NCBI GenBank assembly: GCA_001464055.1
Contig: LNET01000026.1
Span: forward strand, 1 to 64,000
Source: Burkholderiales bacterium Ga0077543
Lineage (GTDB): Bacteria > Pseudomonadota > Gammaproteobacteria > Burkholderiales > Burkholderiaceae_C
Reading direction: 5' to 3'
Length of the DNA stretch: 64,000 bases
Under the pieces are notes generated by a model. It made no database searches, was not told the origin of the DNA, and saw only the letters and a list, made by a program, of their open reading frames with translations. How positions within the stretch are numbered: the first letter of the stretch is position 1; each line of letters opens with the position of its first letter. This document shows, in pieces, positions 39,324 to 51,584 of the stretch. Position numbers and translations under genes: made by a program.

Positions 39324-40859
39324 ATGACACTGCACGAACTTCTGAAAACAGGCGCCGACGACGCGATCGCCCTCGCCGCCCCGGGCCGCCCTTCGCTCAG
39401 CTACGGCGCATTGCGCAGCCTGATCGCCGACACCACGGCAGCGCTGAATGCCAGTGGCATCGGCCGCAACGACCGCGTGGCCATCGTGCTGCCCAACGGA
39501 CCCGAAATGGCCAGCTGCTTCATGGCCTGCGCCACTGCCGCCACCAGCGCGCCGCTGAACCCGGCCTACCGCGTCGACGAGTTCGAGTTCTACCTGAACG
39601 ACCTGCAGGCCAGCGCTTTGATTGTCGAGCAAGGCAGCATCTCGCCCGCCGTGGAAGCAGCCAGCAAGCTCGGCGTCCGGGTGATCGAGCTGCAGGTGGC
39701 CGACGGCGCCCCAGCCGGTCATTTCACGATGGGCGAGCAGCCCGCGGCCACGTGCGACCACGGCGGGCCCTCGCACCCCGACGACGTGGCCATGGTGCTG
39801 CACACCTCGGGCACGACATCCCGGCCGAAGCGCGTGCCACTGTCGCTGGCCAACCTGTGCGCGTCGGCGCGGCACATCGCCGCCACGCTGCAGTTCACGG
39901 CCAGCGACGTCGGCCTGAACATCATGCCGATGTTCCACATCCACGGCCTGATGGCCGGGCTGCTGGCACCGCTGTCGGCCGGCTCGAGGGTGTTCTGCAC
40001 CCCGGGCTTCAATGCCCTGCGCTTCTTCAAGTGGATGGACGAGGCCAAACCCACCTGGTACACGGCCGTACCCACCATGCACCTGGCGATTGCCACACGC
40101 GGCAAGCACAACGCCGAGGTCCTGGCGCGCCACCCGCTGCGTTTCATCCGTTCGTCCTCGTCGGCCATGCCGCCACAGCTGATCCAGCAGCTGGAAACCA
40201 TGTTCAAGGCGCCGCTGATCGAGTCCTACGGCATGACCGAAGCTGCGCACCAGATGGCCTCGAACCCGCTGCCACCGCTGGCGCGCAAGCCGGGTTCGGT
40301 GGGCCGCGCGGCCGGCCCCGAGGTGCGCATCCGTGGCGAGGACGGCAGCTTCCTGGCCGCAGGCGAGATCGGCGAGGTCGTCATCCGCGGGCCGAATGTC
40401 ACCGCAGGCTACGAAAGCAACCCGAAGGCCAACGAAGAAGCCTTCCAGGACGGCTGGTTCCGCACCGGCGACCAGGGCATGCTGGACAGCGAGGGCTATC
40501 TCAGCATCACCGGTCGCCTGAAGGAGATCATCAACCGCGGCGGCGAGAAGGTCAGCCCGCGCGAGATCGACGAAATCCTGCTCGACCATGTCTCGGTGGC
40601 CCAGGTCATCGTCTTCGGCGCACCACACAAGCGCCTGGGCGAAGAAGTGGCGGCCATGGTGGTGCTGCAAGAAGGCCATGAATGCACCGAACGTGAACTG
40701 CAGCAGTTCGTGGCGCAGCGCGTGGCCGGCTACAAGGTGCCGAAGAAGATCCTGTTCGTCGACGAACTTCCCAAGGGCGCCACTGGAAAGCTGCAGCGCA
40801 TCGGCCTGGCGCAGCGCATCGGCCTGGGCTTCGGCTCCTTCGTGTCGGGGGAGTTCTGA
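39324..40859 (+). CDS. Oxalate--CoA ligase (AMP-forming acyl-CoA synthetase family)
   Basis: A 511-residue ANL-superfamily ligase. The phosphate-binding motif is HTSGTTSRPKRVPLS. Ser after the Thr pair, in place of Gly, is typical of oxalyl-CoA synthetases of the Pcs60/AAE3 type. Later motifs are ESYGMTEAAHQM, the hinge ITGRLKEIINRGGEKVSPREID and the catalytic Lys in LPKGATGKLQR. It would make oxalyl-CoA from oxalate, CoA and ATP, feeding the decarboxylase at 47 kb. The gene is followed one base after its stop by a ketopantoate reductase-like gene, so they form an operon. Confidence 0.85.
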   Translation: MTLHELLKTGADDAIALAAPGRPSLSYGALRSLIADTTAALNASGIGRNDRVAIVLPNGPEMASCFMACATAATSAPLNPAYRVDEFEFYLNDLQASALIVEQGSISPAVEAASKLGVRVIELQVADGAPAGHFTMGEQPAATCDHGGPSHPDDVAMVLHTSGTTSRPKRVPLSLANLCASARHIAATLQFTASDVGLNIMPMFHIHGLMAGLLAPLSAGSRVFCTPGFNALRFFKWMDEAKPTWYTAVPTMHLAIATRGKHNAEVLARHPLRFIRSSSSAMPPQLIQQLETMFKAPLIESYGMTEAAHQMASNPLPPLARKPGSVGRAAGPEVRIRGEDGSFLAAGEIGEVVIRGPNVTAGYESNPKANEEAFQDGWFRTGDQGMLDSEGYLSITGRLKEIINRGGEKVSPREIDEILLDHVSVAQVIVFGAPHKRLGEEVAAMVVLQEGHECTERELQQFVAQRVAGYKVPKKILFVDELPKGATGKLQRIGLAQRIGLGFGSFVSGEF

Positions 40860-40860
40860 G

Positions 40861-41868
40861 ATGAAATACACCATCGTGGGCGCCGGCGCCATCGGCGGGT
40901 ACCTGGGCGCGAAGCTGGCCCTGGCCGGCGAGACCGTCACCTTCATCGCCCGCAACCGCAACCTGGCCACCATCAACGCCGAAGGCTTCCGTCTGGAACT
41001 GCCCGACGGCAGCACACAGCACACCCGCGACGTGCGTGCGGTTCAAGACCCGGCCGAGGCCGGTCCGCAAGACGTCGTGCTGCTGACGACCAAGGCCCAC
41101 CAGGTGCGCGACCTGCTGCCTGGCCTGCGCAGCCTGTTCGGGCCGCAGACCATGGTCGTGACCATGATCAACGGCGTGCCCTGGTGGTACTTCCAGCGCC
41201 TGGCCGGGCCCTACGAAGGACGCAGCCTGAGCAGCGTCGACCCCGACGGTGCGCTGGCCGCCGGCATCGAAGTCGACCGCCTGATCGGCAGCATCGTCTA
41301 CCCCGCAGCAGAACTGATGGCGCCTGGGGTGGTGAAGGTCGTCGAAGGCAACCGCTTCTCGATCGGCGAACTCGACAGCCAGCGCACGCCGCGCATCGAG
41401 GCATTGAGCAAGTCGCTGATGGCTGCCGGCTTCAAGGCCCCGGTGGCACGCGACATCCGCAGCGAGCTCTGGGTCAAGCTCTGGGGCAACCTCAGCTTCA
41501 ACCCGATCAGCGCGCTCACGCATGCCACGCTGGAACAGATCTGCCGCTTTCCCGCCAGCCGCGAACTCGCCGCGAACATGATGCGCGAAGCCCAGGCCGT
41601 GGCCGCGAAGCTGGGCGTGGAATTCAAGATCACGCTGGAACAACGCATCGCCGGTGCCGAGGCCGTGGGCGCGCACAAGACCTCGATGTTGCAGGACGTG
41701 GAAAACGGGCGCGCGCTGGAGCTGCAGGCCCTGGTGGGCAGTGTCGTGGAATTGGCGCGGATTACAGACACGCCCACGCCCAGCATCGACGCCATCCATG
41801 CCGCCGCTTCGCTGCTGGCGCAGGTGCTGGCCGAGCAGGGCGGCAGGCTCGAGGTTCGCGCGAGTTGA
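40861..41868 (+). CDS. 2-dehydropantoate 2-reductase family protein
   Basis: A 335-residue member of the ApbA/PanE family. The Rossmann motif is GAGAIGGYLGAKLA, followed by TTKAHQVRDLL, MINGVPWW and the catalytic-Lys region SELWVKLWGNLSFNPISALT. PanE reduces ketopantoate to pantoate for CoA synthesis, and paralogs act on other 2-keto acids. Its place directly after an oxalate-CoA ligase suggests either CoA supply for the CoA-dependent oxalate route or reduction of a related 2-oxo acid. The true substrate is not evident. Confidence 0.8.
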   Translation: MKYTIVGAGAIGGYLGAKLALAGETVTFIARNRNLATINAEGFRLELPDGSTQHTRDVRAVQDPAEAGPQDVVLLTTKAHQVRDLLPGLRSLFGPQTMVVTMINGVPWWYFQRLAGPYEGRSLSSVDPDGALAAGIEVDRLIGSIVYPAAELMAPGVVKVVEGNRFSIGELDSQRTPRIEALSKSLMAAGFKAPVARDIRSELWVKLWGNLSFNPISALTHATLEQICRFPASRELAANMMREAQAVAAKLGVEFKITLEQRIAGAEAVGAHKTSMLQDVENGRALELQALVGSVVELARITDTPTPSIDAIHAAASLLAQVLAEQGGRLEVRAS

Positions 41869-41965: not shown

Positions 41966-41979
41966 TTGACTGCGGTCAA
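41966..41979. promoter_or_regulatory. Fnr/Crp-type operator TTGAC-N4-GTCAA upstream of tctC
   Basis: Perfect palindrome arms TTGAC (41966-41970) and GTCAA (41975-41979) around TGCG. The sequence GACCAT/ACCATA starts 24 bp later (42003-42009) and could be the -10. The whole layout is repeated upstream of oxc, where the palindrome has the complementary spacer CGCA. A centre near -42 is the class II activator position. Confidence 0.75.
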
Positions 41980-42093
41980 TCGCGTTCCACTCCGTGTTGA
42001 TCGACCATAGCAATGCGAATTCGGTCACGGCAGGCTTCGTGCGACAGCAACCAGCCACTTCCAATCGTTGAACGAAACCAAGGAGACATCAGC

Positions 42094-43125
42094 ATGAAAG
42101 CAGTTCGAATTTCCACCGGCATGCCCCGCCGCCTGGCCACCCTGGCCCGCGGTCTTGTCGGCGCCATCGCCGCCCTCGGCATGAGCACCGCCGCCCAGGC
42201 CTGGGAACCCACCAAGCCGGTCGAGTTCATCATCCCGGCCGGTACCGGGGGGGGAGCTGACCAGATGGCCCGCCTGATCCAGGGCATCATCAGCAAGAAC
42301 AACCTGATGAAGGGCAACCTCATCGTCGTGAACAAGTCCGGCGGCGCAGGTGCCGAAGGCTTCCTCGGCATCAAGGGCGCCCAGGGCGATCCGCACAAGA
42401 TCATCATCACCCTGTCGAACCTGTTCACCACGCCCATGGCCACCGGTGTGCCCTTCAACTGGAAGGACCTGACACCCGTGCAGATGTTGGCCCTCGACCA
42501 GTTCGTGCTGTGGGTCAACGCCGATAAGCCGTACAAGACCGCCGGCGAGTACATCGCTGCCGTCAAGGCCGCCGGGCCCCTGAAGATGAAGATGGGCGGC
42601 ACGGGTTCCAAGCAGGAAGACCAGATCATCACCGTCGGCCTGGAAAAGGCCACGGGCACCAAGTTCATCTACGTTCCCTACAAGGGCGGCGGCGAAGTGG
42701 CGGTGCAGCTGGTCGGTGGCCACATCGACTCGACCGTGAACAACCCGGGCGAGGCCGTGTCCCAATGGCGTGGCGGCAGCGTGCGCCCCCTGTGCGTGTT
42801 CGACGACGAGCGCATGCCCTACAAGGCCAAGATCACGGAAACCATGTCCTGGAACGACGTGCCCACCTGCAAGGAGTCGGGCATCCCCACCGACTACGTC
42901 ATGCTGCGTGGCATCTTCATGGCCCCGGGTGTCACACCCGCGCAGGTGAAGTACTTCGACGACCTGATGAACAAGGTTCGTGCCACGACCGAGTGGAAGG
43001 AATTCATGGAGCGCGGCGCCTTCAACACCACCAGCATGTCCGGCGATGCCTTCCGCAAGTGGCTGGAGAGCGCTGAAGCGACCCACCGCACGCTGATGAC
43101 CGAAGCCGGCTTCATGGCGAAGTGA
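42094..43125 (+). CDS. tctC: Bug-family periplasmic binding protein TctC (tripartite tricarboxylate transport)
   Basis: A 343-residue TctC/Bug solute-binding protein with a signal peptide (about 1-36, cut near AAQA-WEP). The family segment is PVEFIIPAGTGGGADQMARLI, followed by NKSGGAGAEGFLGIKG. It delivers small carboxylates to the TctAB membrane pair. AGGAGA precedes the ATG. A run of eight G bases encodes part of the glycine-rich loop. Shared regulation with oxc makes oxalate, or a compound converted to it, the likely ligand. A hairpin separates it from tctB. Confidence 0.88.
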   Translation: MKAVRISTGMPRRLATLARGLVGAIAALGMSTAAQAWEPTKPVEFIIPAGTGGGADQMARLIQGIISKNNLMKGNLIVVNKSGGAGAEGFLGIKGAQGDPHKIIITLSNLFTTPMATGVPFNWKDLTPVQMLALDQFVLWVNADKPYKTAGEYIAAVKAAGPLKMKMGGTGSKQEDQIITVGLEKATGTKFIYVPYKGGGEVAVQLVGGHIDSTVNNPGEAVSQWRGGSVRPLCVFDDERMPYKAKITETMSWNDVPTCKESGIPTDYVMLRGIFMAPGVTPAQVKYFDDLMNKVRATTEWKEFMERGAFNTTSMSGDAFRKWLESAEATHRTLMTEAGFMAK

Positions 43126-43202
43126 TGGCTGCTGGCCGGGCCGTCTTTCGACATTCGCCGCCCGGCCCGCTCGACCTCACCCATTTTCCCTGATTGAAGA
43201 TT

Positions 43203-43220
43203 CCGGGCCCATGTGCCCGG
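43203..43220 (+). promoter_or_regulatory. Intercistronic hairpin between tctC and tctB
   Basis: Stem CCGGGC/GCCCGG with a 6-base loop in the 178-bp gap. It could stabilise the tctC message or partly end transcription, giving more binding protein than permease, as is usual in binding-protein operons. Confidence 0.45.
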
Positions 43221-43303
43221 ACCCATCGGCGGGGCCTTTCAGGCCCGCGCCGGGCCGCAGGCTTGCCGACGCTCTGCGCCCTACGAGCAAGAAGGACACC
43301 GAC

Positions 43304-43840
43304 ATGTCAGACCACCAACACGACGAGCAAGACGCCGAGCAAGACGACACCCCGGCCGTTGCCCAGAACAACACGGTCGACGCCGTGGTGGCGGGCCTGC
43401 TGCTGATGCTGGGCGCCTTGGTCATCTGGGAAGCGCGCCGGCTCGGCGCGGGCTGGACGAGCGATGGCCCGGGATCGGGCTACTTCCCCTTCTACATCGG
43501 CGTGCTCATCTGCATTTCCAGCGTCGGCATCATGTACCAGGCGCTGTTTTCTAAATCGCGCGACACCAGTACCTTCGCCACCGTCAAGCAGACCAAGCAG
43601 GTCGCTTCGGTGCTGCTGCCCGCGGCTGCGTACGTGCTGGCCGTCACCTTCCTGGGCCTGTATCTGGCGTCGGCCATCTACATCGCACTGTTCATGATCA
43701 TCCTGGGCAAGTACTCGCCCGTGAAGAGCGTGGCGGTGGGACTGGGCGTGACCGTGTACTTCTTCCTGATGTTCGAGGTCTGGTTCAAGGTGCCGCTGTG
43801 GAAAGGCACCCTCGACCCGACCCGGTTTCTCGGCTATTGA
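43304..43840 (+). CDS. tctB: Small membrane subunit TctB
   Basis: A 178-residue TctB-type subunit with four hydrophobic helices (about 25-45, 65-85, 105-125 and 130-170). The conserved segment is GPGSGYFPFYIGVLICISSVGI. An acidic N-terminus (DEQDAEQDD) precedes the first helix. It pairs with TctA in the inner membrane to move the substrate presented by TctC, driven by an ion gradient. The ATG at 43304 has AAGGAC upstream. Confidence 0.88.
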   Translation: MSDHQHDEQDAEQDDTPAVAQNNTVDAVVAGLLLMLGALVIWEARRLGAGWTSDGPGSGYFPFYIGVLICISSVGIMYQALFSKSRDTSTFATVKQTKQVASVLLPAAAYVLAVTFLGLYLASAIYIALFMIILGKYSPVKSVAVGLGVTVYFFLMFEVWFKVPLWKGTLDPTRFLGY

Positions 43841-43867
43841 CGCGCGCCCGCCCCGGAGTTCCACCTC

Positions 43868-45397
43868 ATGAATGAACTGAATTCACTGTTGAACGGCTTC
43901 GCCGTCATCATGACGCCGATGAACCTGGGCCTGATGGTCCTGGGTATCGTGCTCGGCGTCCTGATTGGCGTGTTGCCGGGCCTGGGCGGCGCCAACGGCG
44001 TCGCCATCCTGCTGCCGCTGACGTTTTCGATGTCGCCCACCTCGGCCATCGTGATGTTGTCCTGCATCTACTGGGGGGCGCTGTTCGGTGGTGCCATCAC
44101 ATCCATCCTGTTCAACATACCGGGCGAGCCCTGGTCGGTGGCCACCACCTTCGACGGCTATCCACTGGCACAGAAAGGGCGGGCCGCTGCCGCCCTGACG
44201 GCAGCCTTCACCTCATCGTTCATCGGCGCGCTGGTGGCGGTCATCATGATCACCTTCCTGGCACCGCTGGTGGCGAAGTTCGCCTTGAGATTCGGGGCGC
44301 CGGAATTTTTCTCGGTCTACTTACTGACCTTCTGCAGCTTCGTGGGCATGGGCAAGGGGTCGCCCTTCAAGACCCTGGTGGCCATGGCCCTGGGCTTCGC
44401 GCTGGCTGCCGTGGGACTGGACACGGTGACCGGCCAGTTGCGCTTGACCTTCGGCTCGTCCGAGTTGATGCGTGGCTTCGACTTCCTGATCGCGGTGATC
44501 GGCCTGTTCGGCATCGGCGAGATCCTGCTGTCTATGGAGGAAGGCCTGAAGTTCTCGGGGAAGACGGCCAAGATCAACCCGAAGGTGGTGTGGGAGACCT
44601 GGAAGGAACTGCCGCGCTACTGGGCCACCTCGTTGCGCAGCTCTTTCGTCGGCATCTGGATGGGCATCACCCCGGGCGGCGCCACACCGGCCTCGTTCAT
44701 GAGCTACGGCCTGGCAAAGAAGTTCTCGAAAACCGGCTCGAAGTTCGGCACCGGTGAAGTCGAAGGCATCGTCGCCCCCGAGACCGCGGCCCACGCCGCT
44801 GGCACCGCTGCCATGCTGCCGATGCTGGCACTCGGCATCCCCGGTTCGCCCACGGCCGCCGTGCTGCTGGGTGGCCTGCTGATCTGGGGCCTTCAACCCG
44901 GCCCGCTGCTCTTCGTCGAGCAGGCGGACTTCGTCTGGGGCCTGATCGCCAGCATGTACCTGGGCAACCTGGTCGGCCTGATCATCGTGCTGACCACGGT
45001 GCCGCTGTTCGCGTCGATCCTGCGCATCCCGTTCTCGATCATCGCGCCTGTGATCATCGTGATCTGTGCCATCGGGGCCTACACGGTGAACACGGCCATG
45101 CTCGACATCTGGTTCATGCTGCTGTTCGGCGTCATGGGGTACGTGTTCAAGAAGCTCGACTACCCGATCGCCCCGCTCGTGCTGGCCCTGGTGCTGGGCG
45201 GCAAGACCGAAGACTCGTTCCGCCAGGCCATGCTGGTCTCGCAGGGCGAACTGAGCATCATGTTCTCGAACCCGCTGGTCGGTTCGATCACGACGCTGGC
45301 GCTGATCATGCTGTTCTGGCCCCTGCTGTCGAAGCTGATGGCCATCGTGCGCAAGCCCAAGGCCGACGAGTTCGCCGCCCAGCGGCCGGTTGACTGA
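43868..45397 (+). CDS. tctA: Large membrane subunit TctA
   Basis: A 509-residue TctA permease with 11-12 membrane helices. It has the family motifs GVLPGLGGANGVAILLPLTF and GAITSILFNIPGEPWSVATTFDGYP, and the second copy GIPGSPTAAVLLGGLLIWGLQPGP. It forms the transport path with TctB. It follows tctB by 27 bp and precedes the kinase-like/BON gene by 15 bp, so all are in one operon starting at tctC. Confidence 0.92.
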   Translation: MNELNSLLNGFAVIMTPMNLGLMVLGIVLGVLIGVLPGLGGANGVAILLPLTFSMSPTSAIVMLSCIYWGALFGGAITSILFNIPGEPWSVATTFDGYPLAQKGRAAAALTAAFTSSFIGALVAVIMITFLAPLVAKFALRFGAPEFFSVYLLTFCSFVGMGKGSPFKTLVAMALGFALAAVGLDTVTGQLRLTFGSSELMRGFDFLIAVIGLFGIGEILLSMEEGLKFSGKTAKINPKVVWETWKELPRYWATSLRSSFVGIWMGITPGGATPASFMSYGLAKKFSKTGSKFGTGEVEGIVAPETAAHAAGTAAMLPMLALGIPGSPTAAVLLGGLLIWGLQPGPLLFVEQADFVWGLIASMYLGNLVGLIIVLTTVPLFASILRIPFSIIAPVIIVICAIGAYTVNTAMLDIWFMLLFGVMGYVFKKLDYPIAPLVLALVLGGKTEDSFRQAMLVSQGELSIMFSNPLVGSITTLALIMLFWPLLSKLMAIVRKPKADEFAAQRPVD

Positions 45398-45412
45398 AGC
45401 AAAGGAATCGAC

Positions 45413-46246
45413 ATGCCCGTCATCGCATTGACCCAGGGAATGGGCTCGCTGGCCCAGGACGTCGCCGAAGCGCTGGCCGACGAGCTCGGCCTGTCGACCC
45501 TGCAGCACGAAGTGGCAGAACGGGTGGCGGAGAAGATGCACGTGTCGCGCAGCCTGATCAACCGGCTGCGCACAGGCAAGGCCGGCGCGATCGAACGGCT
45601 GCGCAGCGACCGCCAGGCCATGGCCCTGTACTCGGCAGAAGAGGTTCTGGAAGCTGCCGCCAGAGGCAATGTGGTCATCCGCGGCTGGGGCGCCACGCAA
45701 CTGCTCCGGCCGGTGCCGCACATTCCCTGCATCCGCATCATGCGGCCTTTCGACAAGCGCGTGCAGTGGCTGATGGACGAGATCGACACCGACGACAGAA
45801 GCGTCGCCGAGGCCGAGATCAGGCGCAGCGACGAGGCCAATGCCACCCGCATGCAGGACCAGTTCGGCGTCACCTGGAACGAGCCGGTGCTTTTCGATGC
45901 CGTGCTCAACACCGACCGCCTGAGCGTGGCCACCTGCGTGGACACCATCCGCACGCTGCTGTCTCGACCCGAATTCGAGGAAACCCCTCAGTCGCGAGCC
46001 CTGCTGCAGGGCCTGGCGCTGAGCGCCAGGGTGCGGGCCTCGCTGCGTGCCCATGAAGACACGCAAGGTGTCGACATCACCATTTCAAGCCACGAAGGCG
46101 CGGTAAGCCTGAGCGGCATCGTTGCCAGCGCCGAGGAAAAATCCGCGACGGTTCAGGTCAGCACGGCCGTGGCCGGTGTCCAGTCGGTCGACGACCAACT
46201 GCGCGTGATGTCGCGTTCGAAGCTCTTCCCCTCGAATCGCCAATGA
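45413..46246 (+). CDS. Cytidylate-kinase-like protein with C-terminal BON domain
   Basis: A 277-residue protein. Residues about 1-190 resemble the cytidylate-kinase-like family (Cytidylate_kin2), with VIALTQGMGSLAQDVAEALADELGL, NVVIRGWGATQLL and FGVTWNEPVLFDAVLNTDRLS. The P-loop region is altered to TQGMGSLA without the usual GKS/T, so kinase activity is doubtful. Residues about 200-270 form a BON-like domain (VDITISSHEGAVSLSGIV). It is the last gene of the tct operon and points towards the regulator gene. The role is unknown; phospholipid or nucleotide sensing linked to transport is speculative. Confidence 0.75.
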   Translation: MPVIALTQGMGSLAQDVAEALADELGLSTLQHEVAERVAEKMHVSRSLINRLRTGKAGAIERLRSDRQAMALYSAEEVLEAAARGNVVIRGWGATQLLRPVPHIPCIRIMRPFDKRVQWLMDEIDTDDRSVAEAEIRRSDEANATRMQDQFGVTWNEPVLFDAVLNTDRLSVATCVDTIRTLLSRPEFEETPQSRALLQGLALSARVRASLRAHEDTQGVDITISSHEGAVSLSGIVASAEEKSATVQVSTAVAGVQSVDDQLRVMSRSKLFPSNRQ

Positions 46247-46266
46247 GCCGTTCCCGCGTCTGCATC

Positions 46267-46285
46267 AGCGGCCGCCCGGGCCGCT
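46267..46285. terminator. Hairpin between convergent tct operon and regulator gene
   Basis: Stem AGCGGC/GCCGCT with a 7-base loop in the 38-bp gap, touching the regulator stop codon. No strong T run. Possible bidirectional terminator. Confidence 0.4.
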
Positions 46286-46893
46286 CAGATCTTGCCGCGC
46301 TGCTTCAGGCGCGACAGCGTCTCGGCCGACAGGTTCAGGTAGGCCGCCAGTTCCTTCTTCGGAATACGTTCTGCGAGCTCCGCGTGCTTGCGCATGAAAC
46401 GGTGTACCCGGCCCGGTGCGTCCAGCAGATGTAGCGTGATCGTATGGGCCATGATCTCGCTCATCAGTCGCATGACCTCGTATTCGAATTCCAGCTTGAA
46501 GCGCGGGTGCCGGTCGAGGAACTCCACCCACTGCGGCATGGGCAACTTCGCCACACGGGCCTTGGTCACGCTGACAATGGCGTAAGGCGTGGGTGTGTTC
46601 AGGCGCCAGGCGGCGTAGCTGGTCTCGATGCCGCGCTCGTCGGTGAAGCGCAAGATCATTTCTTTGGCATCGGCGCTGGTCACCACGCGCTTGAGGATGC
46701 CTTCGAGCAGAAAATACTGCTCCATCGCATGCACGCCCTGGTGCAGCAGGTAGTCGCCCTTGGCGCAGTCCACGATCACCAACTGCGGGCCGAGGTCGTT
46801 CCATTCGGCGTCGCTCATCGTCTTCAGCATGTCGTTCTGCCGAAGCTGCAGTCGGATGATGTCCCTCTCGGTGTGCTGCGCCAGCGGAATCAT
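46285..46893 (-). CDS. Crp/Fnr-family transcriptional regulator (proposed oxalate regulator)
   Basis: A 202-residue Crp/Fnr-type regulator with an N-terminal cyclic-nucleotide-binding-like barrel and a C-terminal winged helix (IPKKELAAYLNLSAETLSRLK). The recognition helix keeps the E-x-x-S-R pattern of Fnr, which reads TTGA half-sites. Only one cysteine (Cys43) is present, so an Fnr-type iron-sulfur cluster is not expected and another effector must control it. The gene is divergent from oxc. Palindromes TTGAC-N4-GTCAA before oxc and before tctC are its likely targets. It may sense oxalate, formate or an acyl-CoA. Confidence 0.85.
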   Translation of the reverse strand: MIPLAQHTERDIIRLQLRQNDMLKTMSDAEWNDLGPQLVIVDCAKGDYLLHQGVHAMEQYFLLEGILKRVVTSADAKEMILRFTDERGIETSYAAWRLNTPTPYAIVSVTKARVAKLPMPQWVEFLDRHPRFKLEFEYEVMRLMSEIMAHTITLHLLDAPGRVHRFMRKHAELAERIPKKELAAYLNLSAETLSRLKQRGKI

Positions 46894-46955
46894 CGGAAAA
46901 AACGTTGCATCGGTCGCTTCATCGCTCGCTTCATCGATCAGTCAATTCTCGAATC

Positions 46956-46969
46956 TTGACCGCAGTCAA
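46956..46969. promoter_or_regulatory. Fnr/Crp-type operator TTGAC-N4-GTCAA upstream of oxc
   Basis: Arms TTGAC (46956-46960) and GTCAA (46965-46969) around CGCA. TACCAT/ACCATA (46993-46999) begins 24 bp after the palindrome and could be the -10. The spacing and the ACCATA element match the tctC site exactly. It lies between the divergent regulator gene and oxc and could also mediate autoregulation. Confidence 0.75.
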
Positions 46970-47034
46970 CAGCCAGGACAAACCGTCACTTTTACCATAA
47001 GCAGCGTCATCATCGCTGTATCCCGGAGCCTGTC

Positions 47035-48783
47035 ATGTCCGCAAATCTCGCCCCTGTCTCGTCCCCCACCGAAGAGTCGACCATGACCGACGGCTTCAAC
47101 CTCGTCATCGACGCACTGAAGCTCAACGGCATCAAGACCATCTACGGCCTGCCCGGCATTCCCATCACCGACCTGACCCGCAAGGCGCAGGCTCAGGGCC
47201 TGCGCGTCATCTCCTTCCGCCACGAACAAAACGCCGGCAATGCCGCAGCCATCGCCGGCTTCATGACCGGGCAACCTGGCGTGTGCCTGACCGTGTCGGC
47301 CCCAGGCTTCCTGAACGGCCTGACCGCGCTGGCCAACGCCACGACCAACTGCTTTCCGATGATCCTGATCAGCGGCTCCAGCGAGCGCGAGATCGTCGAC
47401 CTGCAGCAGGGCGACTATGAAGAGATGGACCAGGTGGCGGTGGCCAGGTCGCTGTGCAAGGCCGCGTTCCGGGTGCTGCACGCCGAAGACATCGGCGTGG
47501 GCATCGCGCGCGCCATCCGCTCGGCGGTCTCCGGCCGCCCCGGCGGCGTGTACCTGGACCTGCCGGCCAAGCTGTTCTCGCAGGCGATGGACGCCGCGGC
47601 TGGCGCAGCTTCGCTGATCCAGGTCGTCGACCCGGCACCGCGCCAGATTCCGGCCCCCGACGCCGTCAAGCGTGCGCTCGACCTGCTCAAGGGCGCGAAG
47701 AAACCCCTGATCCTGCTCGGCAAGGGTGCGGCCTATGCACGCGCCGACGCAGACATCCGCGCGCTCGTCGAACGCTCGGGCATTCCGTACCTGCCCATGT
47801 CCATGGCCAAGGGCCTGCTGCCCGACACCCACGAACTGTCCGCGGCAGCGGCGCGTTCCTACGTGCTGCCCGAGGCCGACGTGGTGCTGCTCGTGGGCGC
47901 GCGCCTGAACTGGCTGCTGTCGCACGGCAAGGGCAAGACCTGGGGCGGCAAGGACCACAAGGCCTGGGGCGGGCAGAAGTTCATCCAGATCGACATCTCG
48001 CCTACCGAGATGGACAGCAACGTGCGCATCGACGCACCGCTGGTCGGCGACATCGGTTCCTGCGTTTCTGCACTGCTGGCCGGCATCGACGCCAAGTGGC
48101 CCAAGCCGCCGGCCGAATGGCTGAACGCGGTTTTCGATCGCCGCAACAAGAACGTGGCGAAGATGGCCGAGACCCTGGCCAAGGACCCCAAGCCGATGAA
48201 CTTCCACAGCGCACTGAACGTGGTGCGCGACATCGTCAAGGCCAATCCCGACGCGATGCTGGTCAACGAAGGCGCGAACGCGCTGGACTTCACCCGTTCC
48301 ATCGTCGACATGTACAAGCCGCGCAAGCGCCTGGACGTGGGGACCTGGGGCGTGATGGGCATCGGCATGGGCTTTGCCGTCGCCGCTGCGATCGAGTCGG
48401 GCGAACCCGTCATCGCCATCGAAGGCGACAGCGCCTTCGGCTTCAGCGGCATGGAAGTGGAAACCATCTGCCGCTACAACCTGCCGGTGTGCGTGGTCAT
48501 CTTCAACAACAACGGCGTCTATCGCGGCACTGATCAAAATCTGAGCGGCGGCGCCGATGTCGCGCCGACGGTGTTCGTCAAGGACGCGCGCTACGAGAAA
48601 ATGATGGAAGCTTTCGGCGGCGTGGGCGTCTACGCCACCACGCCGGCTGAACTGCGCAAGGGCATGGAAGAGGCCATCCGCTCGCGCCGGCCCACGCTCA
48701 TCAACGCCATCATCGACGAGACCGCCGGCACCGAGAGCGGCCGCATCACCAGCCTGAACCCGGCAGCCGCCGCAAAGAAGTAA
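47035..48783 (+). CDS. oxc: Oxalyl-CoA decarboxylase
   Basis: Oxc is a thiamine-diphosphate enzyme that converts oxalyl-CoA to formyl-CoA and CO2. The 582-residue protein has the N-terminal pyrimidine-binding domain with the catalytic Glu in [15 protein letters not shown], a central domain, and the diphosphate/Mg-binding motif [19 protein letters not shown] (from about 464) ending in NN. The segment NNNGVYRG and length match Oxalobacter Oxc. GGAG lies 6 bases before the ATG. It is the first gene of an operon with frc, preceded by the Fnr-like operator. Confidence 0.96.
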
Positions 48784-48848: not shown

Positions 48849-50123
48849 ATGTCTGACAATCTTCCCCTCAAGGGCATCAAGATCATCGACTTCACCCACG
48901 TGCAGGCCGGCCCTGCATGCACGCAGCTGCTGGCCTGGTTCGGTGCCGACGTGATCAAGGTGGAACGCCCCGGCTCTGGCGACGTCACGCGCAGCCAGCT
49001 GCGCGACATCCCCGGCGCCGACGCCCTGTACTTCACCATGCTCAACAGCAACAAGCGCTCGCTGACGCTCGACACGAAGAAGGCCGAAGGCAAGGCCGTG
49101 CTCGAGAAGCTGATCAAGGAATCCGACGTCATGGTCGAGAACTTCGGCCCGGGCGCACTCGACCGCATGGGCTTCACCTGGGAGCACATCCAGAAGCTCA
49201 ACCCCGGCATGATCCTGGCATCGGTCAAGGGCTTCAGCGACGGCCACCACTACGAAGACCTGAAGGTTTACGAGAACGTGGCGCAGTGCGCGGGCGGCGC
49301 AGCGTCGACCACCGGTTACTGGAAGGGCGAGAACTCCGGTCCCACCATTTCTTCGGCCGCACTCGGTGACTCGAACACCGGCATGCATCTGGCCATCGGC
49401 ATCCTCACCGCCTACATCGGCAAGCAGAAGACCGGCAAGGGCCAGAAGGTGGCCGTGTCCATGCAGGACTCGGTGCTGAACCTGTGCCGCGTGAAGATGC
49501 GCGACCAGTTGCGTCTGGACAAGGTGGGCTACCTGGAAGAGTACCCGCAGTACCCGCACGAGATGGAAGCCTTCAAGGACGGCGTGGTGCCGCGCGGCGC
49601 CAACGCCGGCGGCGGCGGCCAGCCGGGCTGGATCCTGAAGTGCAAGGGCTGGGAAACCGACCCCAACGCCTACATCTACTTCACGGTGCAGGGCCATGCC
49701 TGGGAACCCATCTGCGACGCACTGGGCAAGCCGGAATGGAAGACCGACCCGGCCTACACCACCGCACAGGCCCGCCAGCCGCACATCATGAACATCTTCG
49801 CCACCATCGAAGACTTCATCAAGGACAAGACCAAGTTCGAGGCGGTGGACATCTTCCGCAAGTTCGACATTCCTTGCGCGCCCGTGCTGTCGATGAAGGA
49901 ATTGCTGCACGACAAGTCGCTGCGCGCCAGCGGCTCCATCGTCGAAGTGCCGCACAAGGTGCGTGGAAGCTACTTCACGGTGGGCAGCCCGATCAAGTTC
50001 TCGGGCATGAAGCCTGAAGTCACGGCTTCGCCGCTGCTGGGTGAGCACACCGACGCCGTGCTCGCCGAACTGGGCTACTCGGCCCAGGAAATCGCCGCGA
50101 TGCACGAGGTCAAGGCCGTCTGA
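48849..50123 (+). CDS. frc: Formyl-CoA:oxalate CoA-transferase
   Basis: Frc moves CoA from formyl-CoA to oxalate, giving formate and oxalyl-CoA and so recycling CoA for Oxc. The 424-residue family III CoA transferase has [26 protein letters not shown], the catalytic Asp174 (GDSNTGMHL) and the glycine loop [10 protein letters not shown] that covers the active site. It lies 65 bp after oxc and ends before a strong terminator. Confidence 0.95.
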
Positions 50124-50185: not shown

Positions 50186-50336
50186 ATCGCGAACCGCCCG
50201 GGGCTGCAGCAGACCACCCGGCCGGCCCGTTCAGGTACGGCCGCGACCAGGGGCCTTGGCAGCGACGCCTGAGGCTATCCTGCGGCGCGGCGCCACCCGG
50301 CGTGGCCAGGCATTCCAGACTTCCAGGACCTCCGAC

Positions 50337-51584
50337 ATGGGCAAAGCACTCGACGGCGTTCGCATTCTCGACTTCACACATGTTCAATCCGGCCCCACCT
50401 GCACACAGTTGCTGGCCTGGCTGGGTGCCGACGTCATCAAGGTTGAACGCCCGGGCGAAGGCGACGCCACGCGCAAGCAACTGCGCGACATTCCCGGCGT
50501 GGACAGCCTCTACTTCACGATGCTGAACCACAACAAGCGCTCGGTCACGATCAACACCAAGTCGCCCGGCGGCATGACGGTGCTGGACCGGCTGATCAAG
50601 ACTTGCGATGTGATGGTCGAGAACTTCGCACCAGGGGCGCTGGAGCGAATGGGCATCACCTGGGACCGCATCCAGGCCCTGAATCCGCGCATGATCGTGG
50701 CGTCAGTGAAGGGCTTCGGAGCCGGCCCTTACCAGGACTGCAAGGTCTACGAGAACGTGGCGCAATGCGCTGGCGGCGCCGCATCCACCACGGGCGAGGT
50801 CGACGGCATGCCGATGATCAGCGGCGCCCAGATCGGCGACAGCGGCACCGGCCTGCACCTGGCACTGGGCATCGTCGCGGCGCTGTATCAGCGCCACGGC
50901 AGCGGCCGGGGCCAGCAGGTGCTGGCACCGATGCAGGACGCAGTGCTGAACCTGTGCCGCGTGAAGCTGCGCGACCAGCAGCGCCTGGAACGCATGCACA
51001 CGATGCACGAATATCCGCAATACCCTGACGGCAAGTTCGGCGACTCGGTTCCGCGTGCAGGCAACGCCTCGGGCGGCGGACAGCCCGGCGCCATCCTCAA
51101 GTGCAAGGGCTGGGAAACCGACCCCAACGCCTACATCTACTTCATCACGCAGGCTGCGGTCTGGCCGGCCATCTGCCGGGTGATCGGCGAGCCCGGCTGG
51201 ATCGACGACGAGGCCTATGCCACACCGCAAGCCCGCCTGCTGCACCTGAAGCCGATCTTCGGGCGCATCGAGCAGTGGACGATGAGCAAGGACAAGTTCG
51301 AGGCGATGGACATCCTGAACGAGTTCGACATCCCTTGCGGACCCATCCTGTCGATGAAGGAAATCGCCGAAGAACCTTCGTTGCGTGCCAGCGGAACGGT
51401 GGTCGAGGTCGACCATCCAGAACGGGGCAAGTACCTGAGCGTGGGCAACCCCATCAAGCTGTCCGACAGCCCCACCGAGGTGACCCGCTCACCCTTGCTG
51501 GGCGAGCACACCGACGCCGTGCTGTCCCAATTGGGCTTCAGCGCGTCGGAAATCGAGGCCCTGCGTGCCGAGGGTGCGATCTGA
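50337..51584 (+). CDS. Second formyl-CoA:oxalate CoA-transferase-like protein
   Basis: A 415-residue paralog of Frc. The N-terminal [26 protein letters not shown], the catalytic Asp168 (GDSGTGLHL) and the loop [10 protein letters not shown] are kept; the first glycine of the loop is Ser. It lies behind the terminator of the first frc gene and so needs its own promoter. It may act on oxalate with a different donor such as succinyl-CoA or acetyl-CoA, as the E. coli YfdE/Frc pair does, or may simply be a duplicate. Confidence 0.88.

Follow-up and report, generated by a model that had tools for sequence, protein, structure and literature searches.

What controls the uptake and breakdown of oxalate is the question raised by a gene cluster in the 64,000-nucleotide stretch of DNA analysed here (the window; positions 1 to 64,000 of contig LNET01000026.1, from Burkholderiales bacterium Ga0077543), where transporter genes beginning with tctC and the genes for oxalyl-CoA decarboxylase (oxc) and formyl-CoA transferase (frc) lie on either side of a gene for a Crp/Fnr-type regulator. 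A first-pass annotation had noted the palindrome TTGAC-N4-GTCAA before both tctC and oxc, each followed by an ACCATA element, and had suggested a dedicated oxalate regulator and its regulon. That suggestion is supported in its main part by the co-occurrence of regulator and oxc, by the operators themselves, by promoter geometry and by the residues of the recognition helix. We consider it highly probable that the 202-amino acid protein encoded between the two sites serves as a dedicated, local class II activator of oxalate use, acting through TTGACC-NN-GGTCAA.

Association of the regulator with the operator

Among 61 genomes (that of the window and 60 relatives), 15 including its own carry a full orthologue of the regulator (E <= 1.3e-79), the next match falling at 4.8e-8. 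Across 399 genomes of the same order (the order set; matches to the regulator at E <= 1e-30 and to oxc at E <= 1e-120), the regulator was found in 76 and oxc in 75, with both in 67, neither in 315, oxc alone in 8 and the regulator alone in 9. The two genes lie within 3 kb of each other in 58 of the 67 (40 divergent, 3 convergent and 15 on the same strand), and farther apart or on different contigs in the other nine, partly perhaps through fragmented assemblies. A 398-genome draw of the phylum gave eight matches, the source genome's own included, all within the order (the share of the draw from outside the order is not stated), and a plasmid collection held no relatives at E <= 1e-20.

The operator before oxc follows the presence of the regulator. 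When a site with at most one mismatch to the TTGAC-N4-GTCAA-type operator is scored as present, and the best site in the 500 bp upstream of oxc is taken, 63 of 65 genomes with the regulator are positive (45 exact, 18 with one mismatch; the remaining 2 have two), versus none of the 8 without it (four with three mismatches, four with four; Fisher p 3e-9, uncorrected for relatedness); two further oxc loci (G180, G365) were unreadable, the contig ending at the upstream region, and were left out. The eight genomes lacking the regulator are 95-100% complete. A similar division is seen inside single families, the operator preceding oxc in 6/6 genomes of family f32 with the regulator (all of one genus) vs 0/4 without (other genera), and in 10/10 vs 0/1 in family f47. 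In the nine genomes whose regulator is on a different contig from oxc or more than 3 kb from it, five of the seven readable oxc loci (those of G044, G093, G038, G355 and G173) keep the site; G355 also has three regulator copies on three contigs (L165, L166 and L167 among the loci), and its oxc is preceded by two exact operators spaced 40 bp apart (L164:7711 and 7751). Where the regulator is lacking, a GntR/FCD gene stands next to oxc at one locus and a LysR gene at one (L144, L151), while the frames tested beside oxc at the other six included no regulator; these lineages seem to be wired otherwise.

Within the window, both palindromes lie where they had been reported, each the reverse complement of the other, and ACCATA begins 24 bp after each (at 42004 and 46994), the conserved -10 hexamer (T/G)ACCAT beginning one base ahead of it. 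The palindrome followed after 22-24 bp by ANNAT occurs twice in the window and in none of 100 dinucleotide shuffles. TTGAC-N4-GTCAA alone occurs at 5 places in the source genome vs 4 for a reversed control, that is, with no enrichment, and the tighter TTGACYNNRGTCAA is found only at the two window sites in the 5.19-Mb assembly (control, 1). Another of the five places is flanked by the genes of a periplasmic-binding-type protein (PF12849) and of a Na/H exchanger; at another, two of the flanking frames were tested and gave no Pfam match. One more (TTGACAAATGTCAA, L005:1501-1514) separates reaction-centre cytochrome and HiPIP genes and is probably an ordinary FNR-type site of the photosynthetic system. 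Exact copies of TTGACYNNRGTCAA number 45 in the 15 regulator genomes (reversed control, 9) and 47 in 38 chosen genomes without a full orthologue, the eight oxc-only genomes among them (control, 16). Across whole genomes the exact motif is thus in real but modest excess, and the evidence rests on the position of the sites, not on their number.

Targets and promoter geometry

Sites before other genes were counted in the order set and in a collection of named loci, the best 80 of at least 521 relatives, which overlaps in part with the order-set genomes (G handles). Counts use the best match per locus and 400 bp upstream, with the match required to begin in the first 60 residues, and n is the number of loci (Table 1). 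The oxc of G283, 55% identical, is under the identity floor and so enters only the oxc-upstream comparison given above. That the palindrome should precede oxc and tct genes in relatives with the regulator had been set in advance as a refutation test; for oxc this is what was found, at every readable named locus and nearly throughout the order set, and for tctC it was so only in part. Shuffle expectation stays below 1 in every row of the table.

Table 1. Loci with an operator upstream of each target, and best offset of TATAAT from the operator
Target	Identity floor	Named loci	Shuffle expectation, named loci	Order set, with regulator	Order set, without regulator	Best offset (n, z)
oxc	60%	70/70	0.35	63/65	0/7	37 (129, 4.1)
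tctC	60%	47/52	0.70	24/42	0/2	36 (65, 2.9)
oxlT	55%	12/12	0.15	3/11	0/2	36 (15, 4.3)
Fhs	70%			20/23	0/1	37 (20, 4.2)
FdsB	60%	3/22		1/4	0/2	too few sites
TPP enzyme	45%	2/2		7/7		36 (9, 2.3)
frc2	50%	6/64		15/71	0/7	36 (21, 3.4)

Family names were taken from representatives: oxlT from two proteins (TIGR04259, oxalate/formate antiporter), Fhs from one (NF010030, formate-tetrahydrofolate ligase), FdsB from three and the thiamine pyrophosphate (TPP) enzyme from four; a formate dehydrogenase alpha subunit (TIGR01591) follows the FdsB-like gene of G046. By these names the targets span uptake, decarboxylation and both the oxidation and the assimilation of formate. Rates are low for frc2, FdsB and, in the order set, oxlT, which marks these as targets in some lineages only. 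Annotation of the frames behind operators left out 49 single frames and several clusters, and many frames in the list run antisense to known genes.

In 7 of the 9 genomes that have the regulator but no canonical oxc, the TPP enzyme stands behind the operator at the position of oxc (5 exact sites, 2 with one mismatch), as at L041:10421-12121, L161:4920-6500, L159:7629-9224 and L163:7545-9167, and also at L160, L162 and L180. It adjoins frc and often oxlT, and in L041 is 26% identical to Oxc; for the four representatives the best NCBIfam model is PRK05858, below its cut-off, with 2-hydroxyacyl-CoA lyase next. This divergent enzyme is a candidate stand-in oxalyl-CoA decarboxylase. A PAS-domain protein of about 150 amino acids (Pfam checked on the L076 copy) lies between or beside frc genes in several oxalate clusters (L041:13628-14038, L076:7363-7821, L145, L146, L147, L156 and L174), also where the regulator is lacking, in three. 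A succinate/malate-CoA ligase beta gene of G044 has an exact operator (L243:4350-4363) 68 bp ahead of it, which may tie in the serine cycle. In Lacisediminimonas, exact operators (L064:14115, L065:14795) lie some 290-300 bp before a LysR-type gene; for its L065 product the closest model is CbbR, with a score below cut-off.

A class II activator position is one in which the operator is centred near -41.5 and takes over the -35 element, and members of the Crp/Fnr family usually activate from there. When 130 distinct oxc-side sequences are aligned on the operator, conservation is high at GAAAA-TTGACCGCGGTCAA-TG, decays, and rises again at positions 33-43, the commonest letters at positions 37-42 being TATAAT. 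Because these logos were drawn from sites with no more than one mismatch, selection accounts in part for the half-site letters, though not for those of the -10. With TATAAT scored at offsets 18-59, the best offset is 36 or 37 in each of the six target groups with enough sites (Table 1). Since the start is set 7 bases after the hexamer, this predicts an operator centre at -41.5 or -42.5, and the class II placing near -42 proposed from the two window promoters thus recurs, by predicted hexamers, in all six groups.

The regulator and competing explanations

The regulator gene itself was correctly called as lying between the two sites. Its product matches PF00027 at 32.6 bits (cut-off 27.5), and its predicted model has a CRP fold at a mean pLDDT of 89.8, with strands within residues 39-118, a long helix at 130-169 and helix-turn-helix (HTH) helices at 179-185 and 190-198. 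By this predicted barrel, long helix and C-terminal HTH it is a member of the Crp/Fnr superfamily; the neighbours returned by a fold search include GlxR, CRP, DNR and FNR and resolve the superfamily only. The HTH domain is atypical, the protein falling outside the 11 PF13545 (Crp-type HTH) matches of its own genome, and the chain ends shortly after the recognition helix. The E-x-x-S-R residues of FNR that the first reading had recognised (E191, S194, R195) are invariant in 15/15 and 45/45 orthologues, and 129 of the 130 distinct oxc-side sites (selected at one mismatch or fewer) read TTGA-N6-TCAA, 111 of them the full TTGAC-N4-GTCAA. Judged by these residues and half-sites, DNA recognition is of the FNR type.

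Two well-known modes of sensing were considered and rejected. FNR senses oxygen with an Fe-S cluster for which four cysteines are essential, three of these close to the N-terminus. The regulator has only one, as had been noted; this residue, C43, is at a position that is Cys in 38/45 closer orthologues and is C in 6, Y in 5, G in 3 and V in 1 of 15 diverse ones, 4 of which have no cysteine at all; Fe-S oxygen sensing was rejected on these grounds. CRP binds cAMP through a phosphate-binding cassette with E72, R82 and S83. In a profile alignment these fall on S92, T102 and P103 of the regulator, and a cAMP receptor was rejected accordingly.

The best sequence match in the PDB is 3dn7, a cyclic-nucleotide-type regulator of Cytophaga hutchinsonii (E 1e-7 and 4.8e-12), which aligns with the regulator free of gaps through the short C-terminal domain. 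DNR (3dkw) is also near (E 3.7e-6 and 5.9e-7) and has an FNR-type helix in the alignment; it differs, in a comparison by sequence and motif only, in having denitrification targets and the motif CTTGATnnnnATCAAG, according to the available part of PMC1274295. FNR, ANR and FnrL share with the regulator the CRP fold and the E-x-x-S-R helix, and they read TTGA and act from a class II position near -41.5; they differ in that the regulator lacks the N-terminal Fe-S cysteines, has an operator with TTGAC, not TTGAT, and a narrow target set. HcpR1, another Crp/Fnr-family protein, has an hcp/frdX regulon in deltaproteobacteria and two cyanobacteria (PMC545781, PMC1274295, in the parts available). The operator predicted for it, ATTTGACCNNGGTCAAAT / TTGACnnnnGTCAA, shows this same motif and its gene is often beside its target, but the parts of those papers at hand give it hybrid-cluster protein and nitrogen-oxide genes as targets. 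The source genome, 94.5% complete, has no match to a prismane (PF03063) or hcp homologue, and membership in HcpR1 was rejected: the regulator shares TTGACnnnnGTCAA and lacks the hcp target. HcpR was absent from the PDB matches by sequence at E <= 0.001, and the Porphyromonas gingivalis HcpR ranked 36th in the fold search. Taken at the level of sequence, the regulator and its targets are best described as a new local regulon of the Crp/Fnr superfamily, outside FNR, CRP and HcpR.

These likenesses bear on other readings of the same sites. That the regulator senses NO, redox state or haem in the manner of DNR and HcpR, oxalate use being coupled to respiration, draws on DNR being the second-nearest solved structure by sequence and on the motif shared with HcpR1; we regard it as unlikely, since it is oxalate and formate genes that recur as targets (most single, non-recurrent downstream frames being unannotated), the cysteine is not conserved and hcp is absent from the source genome. 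Repression of the oxalate genes, relieved by oxalate, would agree with the known ability of Crp/Fnr proteins to repress and with an oxc site placed in a divergent region, where it could repress the regulator's own gene, but the best -10 in six target groups puts the operator centre at the usual activating position, and repression seems to us quite improbable. The sites might instead be used by a global oxygen regulator of the FNR/ANR/FnrL type, or by DNR, with the adjoining gene incidental. At least two of the 11 Crp-type HTH matches in the source genome have an FNR-like E-x-x-S-R helix, one with several cysteines on the N-terminal side; the motif resembles an FNR box, exact copies occur in genomes without the regulator, and one TTGAC-N4-GTCAA adjoins the photosynthetic genes. 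FNR-type proteins should, however, be common in genomes with and without the regulator, and the oxc operator tracks the regulator itself, which makes this reading very unlikely. Chance, or slowly evolving DNA of no function, is hardly credible and was rejected on the oxc-upstream, target-group and shuffle counts: many of the compared genomes are closely related and the plain 14-mer is at background in the source genome, but conservation decays between its peaks at the palindrome and the -10, the site is missing from regulator-less genomes even within f32, and it precedes unrelated genes of one pathway.

Several observations weigh against a dedicated local activator. In G216 and G088, which have the regulator on another contig, only two-mismatch sites precede oxc. 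The site is missing at 18/42 tctC and 8/11 oxlT loci of the order set and, in the order set and named loci respectively, at 56/71 and 58/64 for frc2 and 3/4 and 19/22 for FdsB, some of which may be operon-internal. The p-values overstate independence, because the genomes are related and the six f32 regulator genomes are one genus. The other proteins of the source genome with FNR-type helices, at least two, also count here.

If the regulator is indeed a dedicated activator, its dimer would bind TTGACC-NN-GGTCAA and contact the sigma-70 RNA polymerase from the class II position, and would activate oxc-frc and tctCBA, leading to oxalate import and catabolism; in some relatives oxlT, formate-tetrahydrofolate ligase, frc and formate dehydrogenase would be added. 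From the sequence evidence we infer that this protein binds the operators and that it activates, not represses. Autoregulation is possible, as the regulator gene, too, has the oxc operator upstream of it. The signal, the least certain part, is most likely a metabolite of the pathway (oxalate, oxalyl-CoA, formyl-CoA or formate) held in a modified cyclic-nucleotide domain, and the formate genes among the targets may slightly favour a common intermediate. A wider proposal, that the regulator forms a new ligand class of Crp/Fnr proteins sensing oxalyl-CoA, formyl-CoA or oxalate, and that the whole route from oxalate to formate to one-carbon metabolism is one regulon across much of the order, is offered tentatively, and we lean somewhat against it.

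The gene cluster and its meaning

The features of the cluster are listed in gene order in Table 2. Many clusters have the cytidylate-kinase-like/BON gene in the same place, between those for tctA and the regulator. C. necator no longer grew on oxalate once frc-oxc had been deleted, and its PanE/ApbA-family protein ApbA2 can, in the authors' conclusion, act as a CoA-acylating glyoxylate dehydrogenase (PMC7486775, in the part available); by analogy, the panE-like gene of the window may do the same. The source genome looks like that of a purple phototroph, since it has a reaction-centre cytochrome gene, and the most similar regulators among named records (best 80 of at least 521 relatives) are from Rubrivivax metagenome-assembled genomes.

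Table 2. Features of the oxalate cluster in the window
Feature	Coordinates	Strand	Remarks
Acyl-CoA synthetase	39324..40859	+	presumed oxalyl-CoA synthetase from position; operator absent upstream
panE/apbA-like gene	40852..41868	+	operator absent directly upstream
Operator before tctC	41966..41979	+	TTGACTGCGGTCAA
Predicted -10 hexamer GACCAT	42003..42008	+	predicted start ~42015; operator centre near -42.5
tctC, receptor of tripartite tricarboxylate-type transporter	42094..43125	+	PF03401; oxalate uptake presumed from position
tctB	43304..43840	+	PF07331
tctA	43868..45397	+	PF01970
Cytidylate-kinase-like and BON-domain protein	45413..46246	+	PF13189
Crp/Fnr-family regulator, 202 amino acids, short HTH, recognition helix ETLSR	46285..46893	-	open reading frame and profile matches
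Operator between regulator and oxc, shared divergent region	46956..46969	+	TTGACCGCAGTCAA; 62 bp from regulator start codon
Predicted -10 hexamer TACCAT	46993..46998	+	predicted start ~47005
oxc, oxalyl-CoA decarboxylase	47035..48783	+	NF006721 and TIGR03254 above cut-off
frc1, formyl-CoA transferase	48849..50123	+	TIGR03253 above cut-off
frc2, second formyl-CoA transferase	50256..51584	+	TIGR03253 above cut-off; start may be ~50334

Among the literature matches listed, in the parts available, work on oxalate degradation describes oxc, frc and transporters and names no regulator. The main text of three oxalate papers (PMC12927642, PMC3886118, PMC9476978) does not contain the word regulator, and the titles and abstract openings of the listed matches nowhere tie a Crp/Fnr-type regulator or this operator to oxalate genes, a report in a subscription journal remaining possible. 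The DNA motif by itself is already known from HcpR1; as far as searched, the pairing of this regulator with a regulon reaching from oxalate uptake to formate use appears new.

The regulator and its 14-bp operator offer a handle on how oxalotrophs turn this route on. The operator is also a way to find unrecognised oxalate genes, and already points to the stand-in TPP enzyme and to the formate genes, while the regulator is a candidate oxalate biosensor. The Crp/Fnr superfamily is known mostly for responses to cAMP, oxygen, NO and CO; if our reading is true, a metabolite-sensing branch would be added to it.

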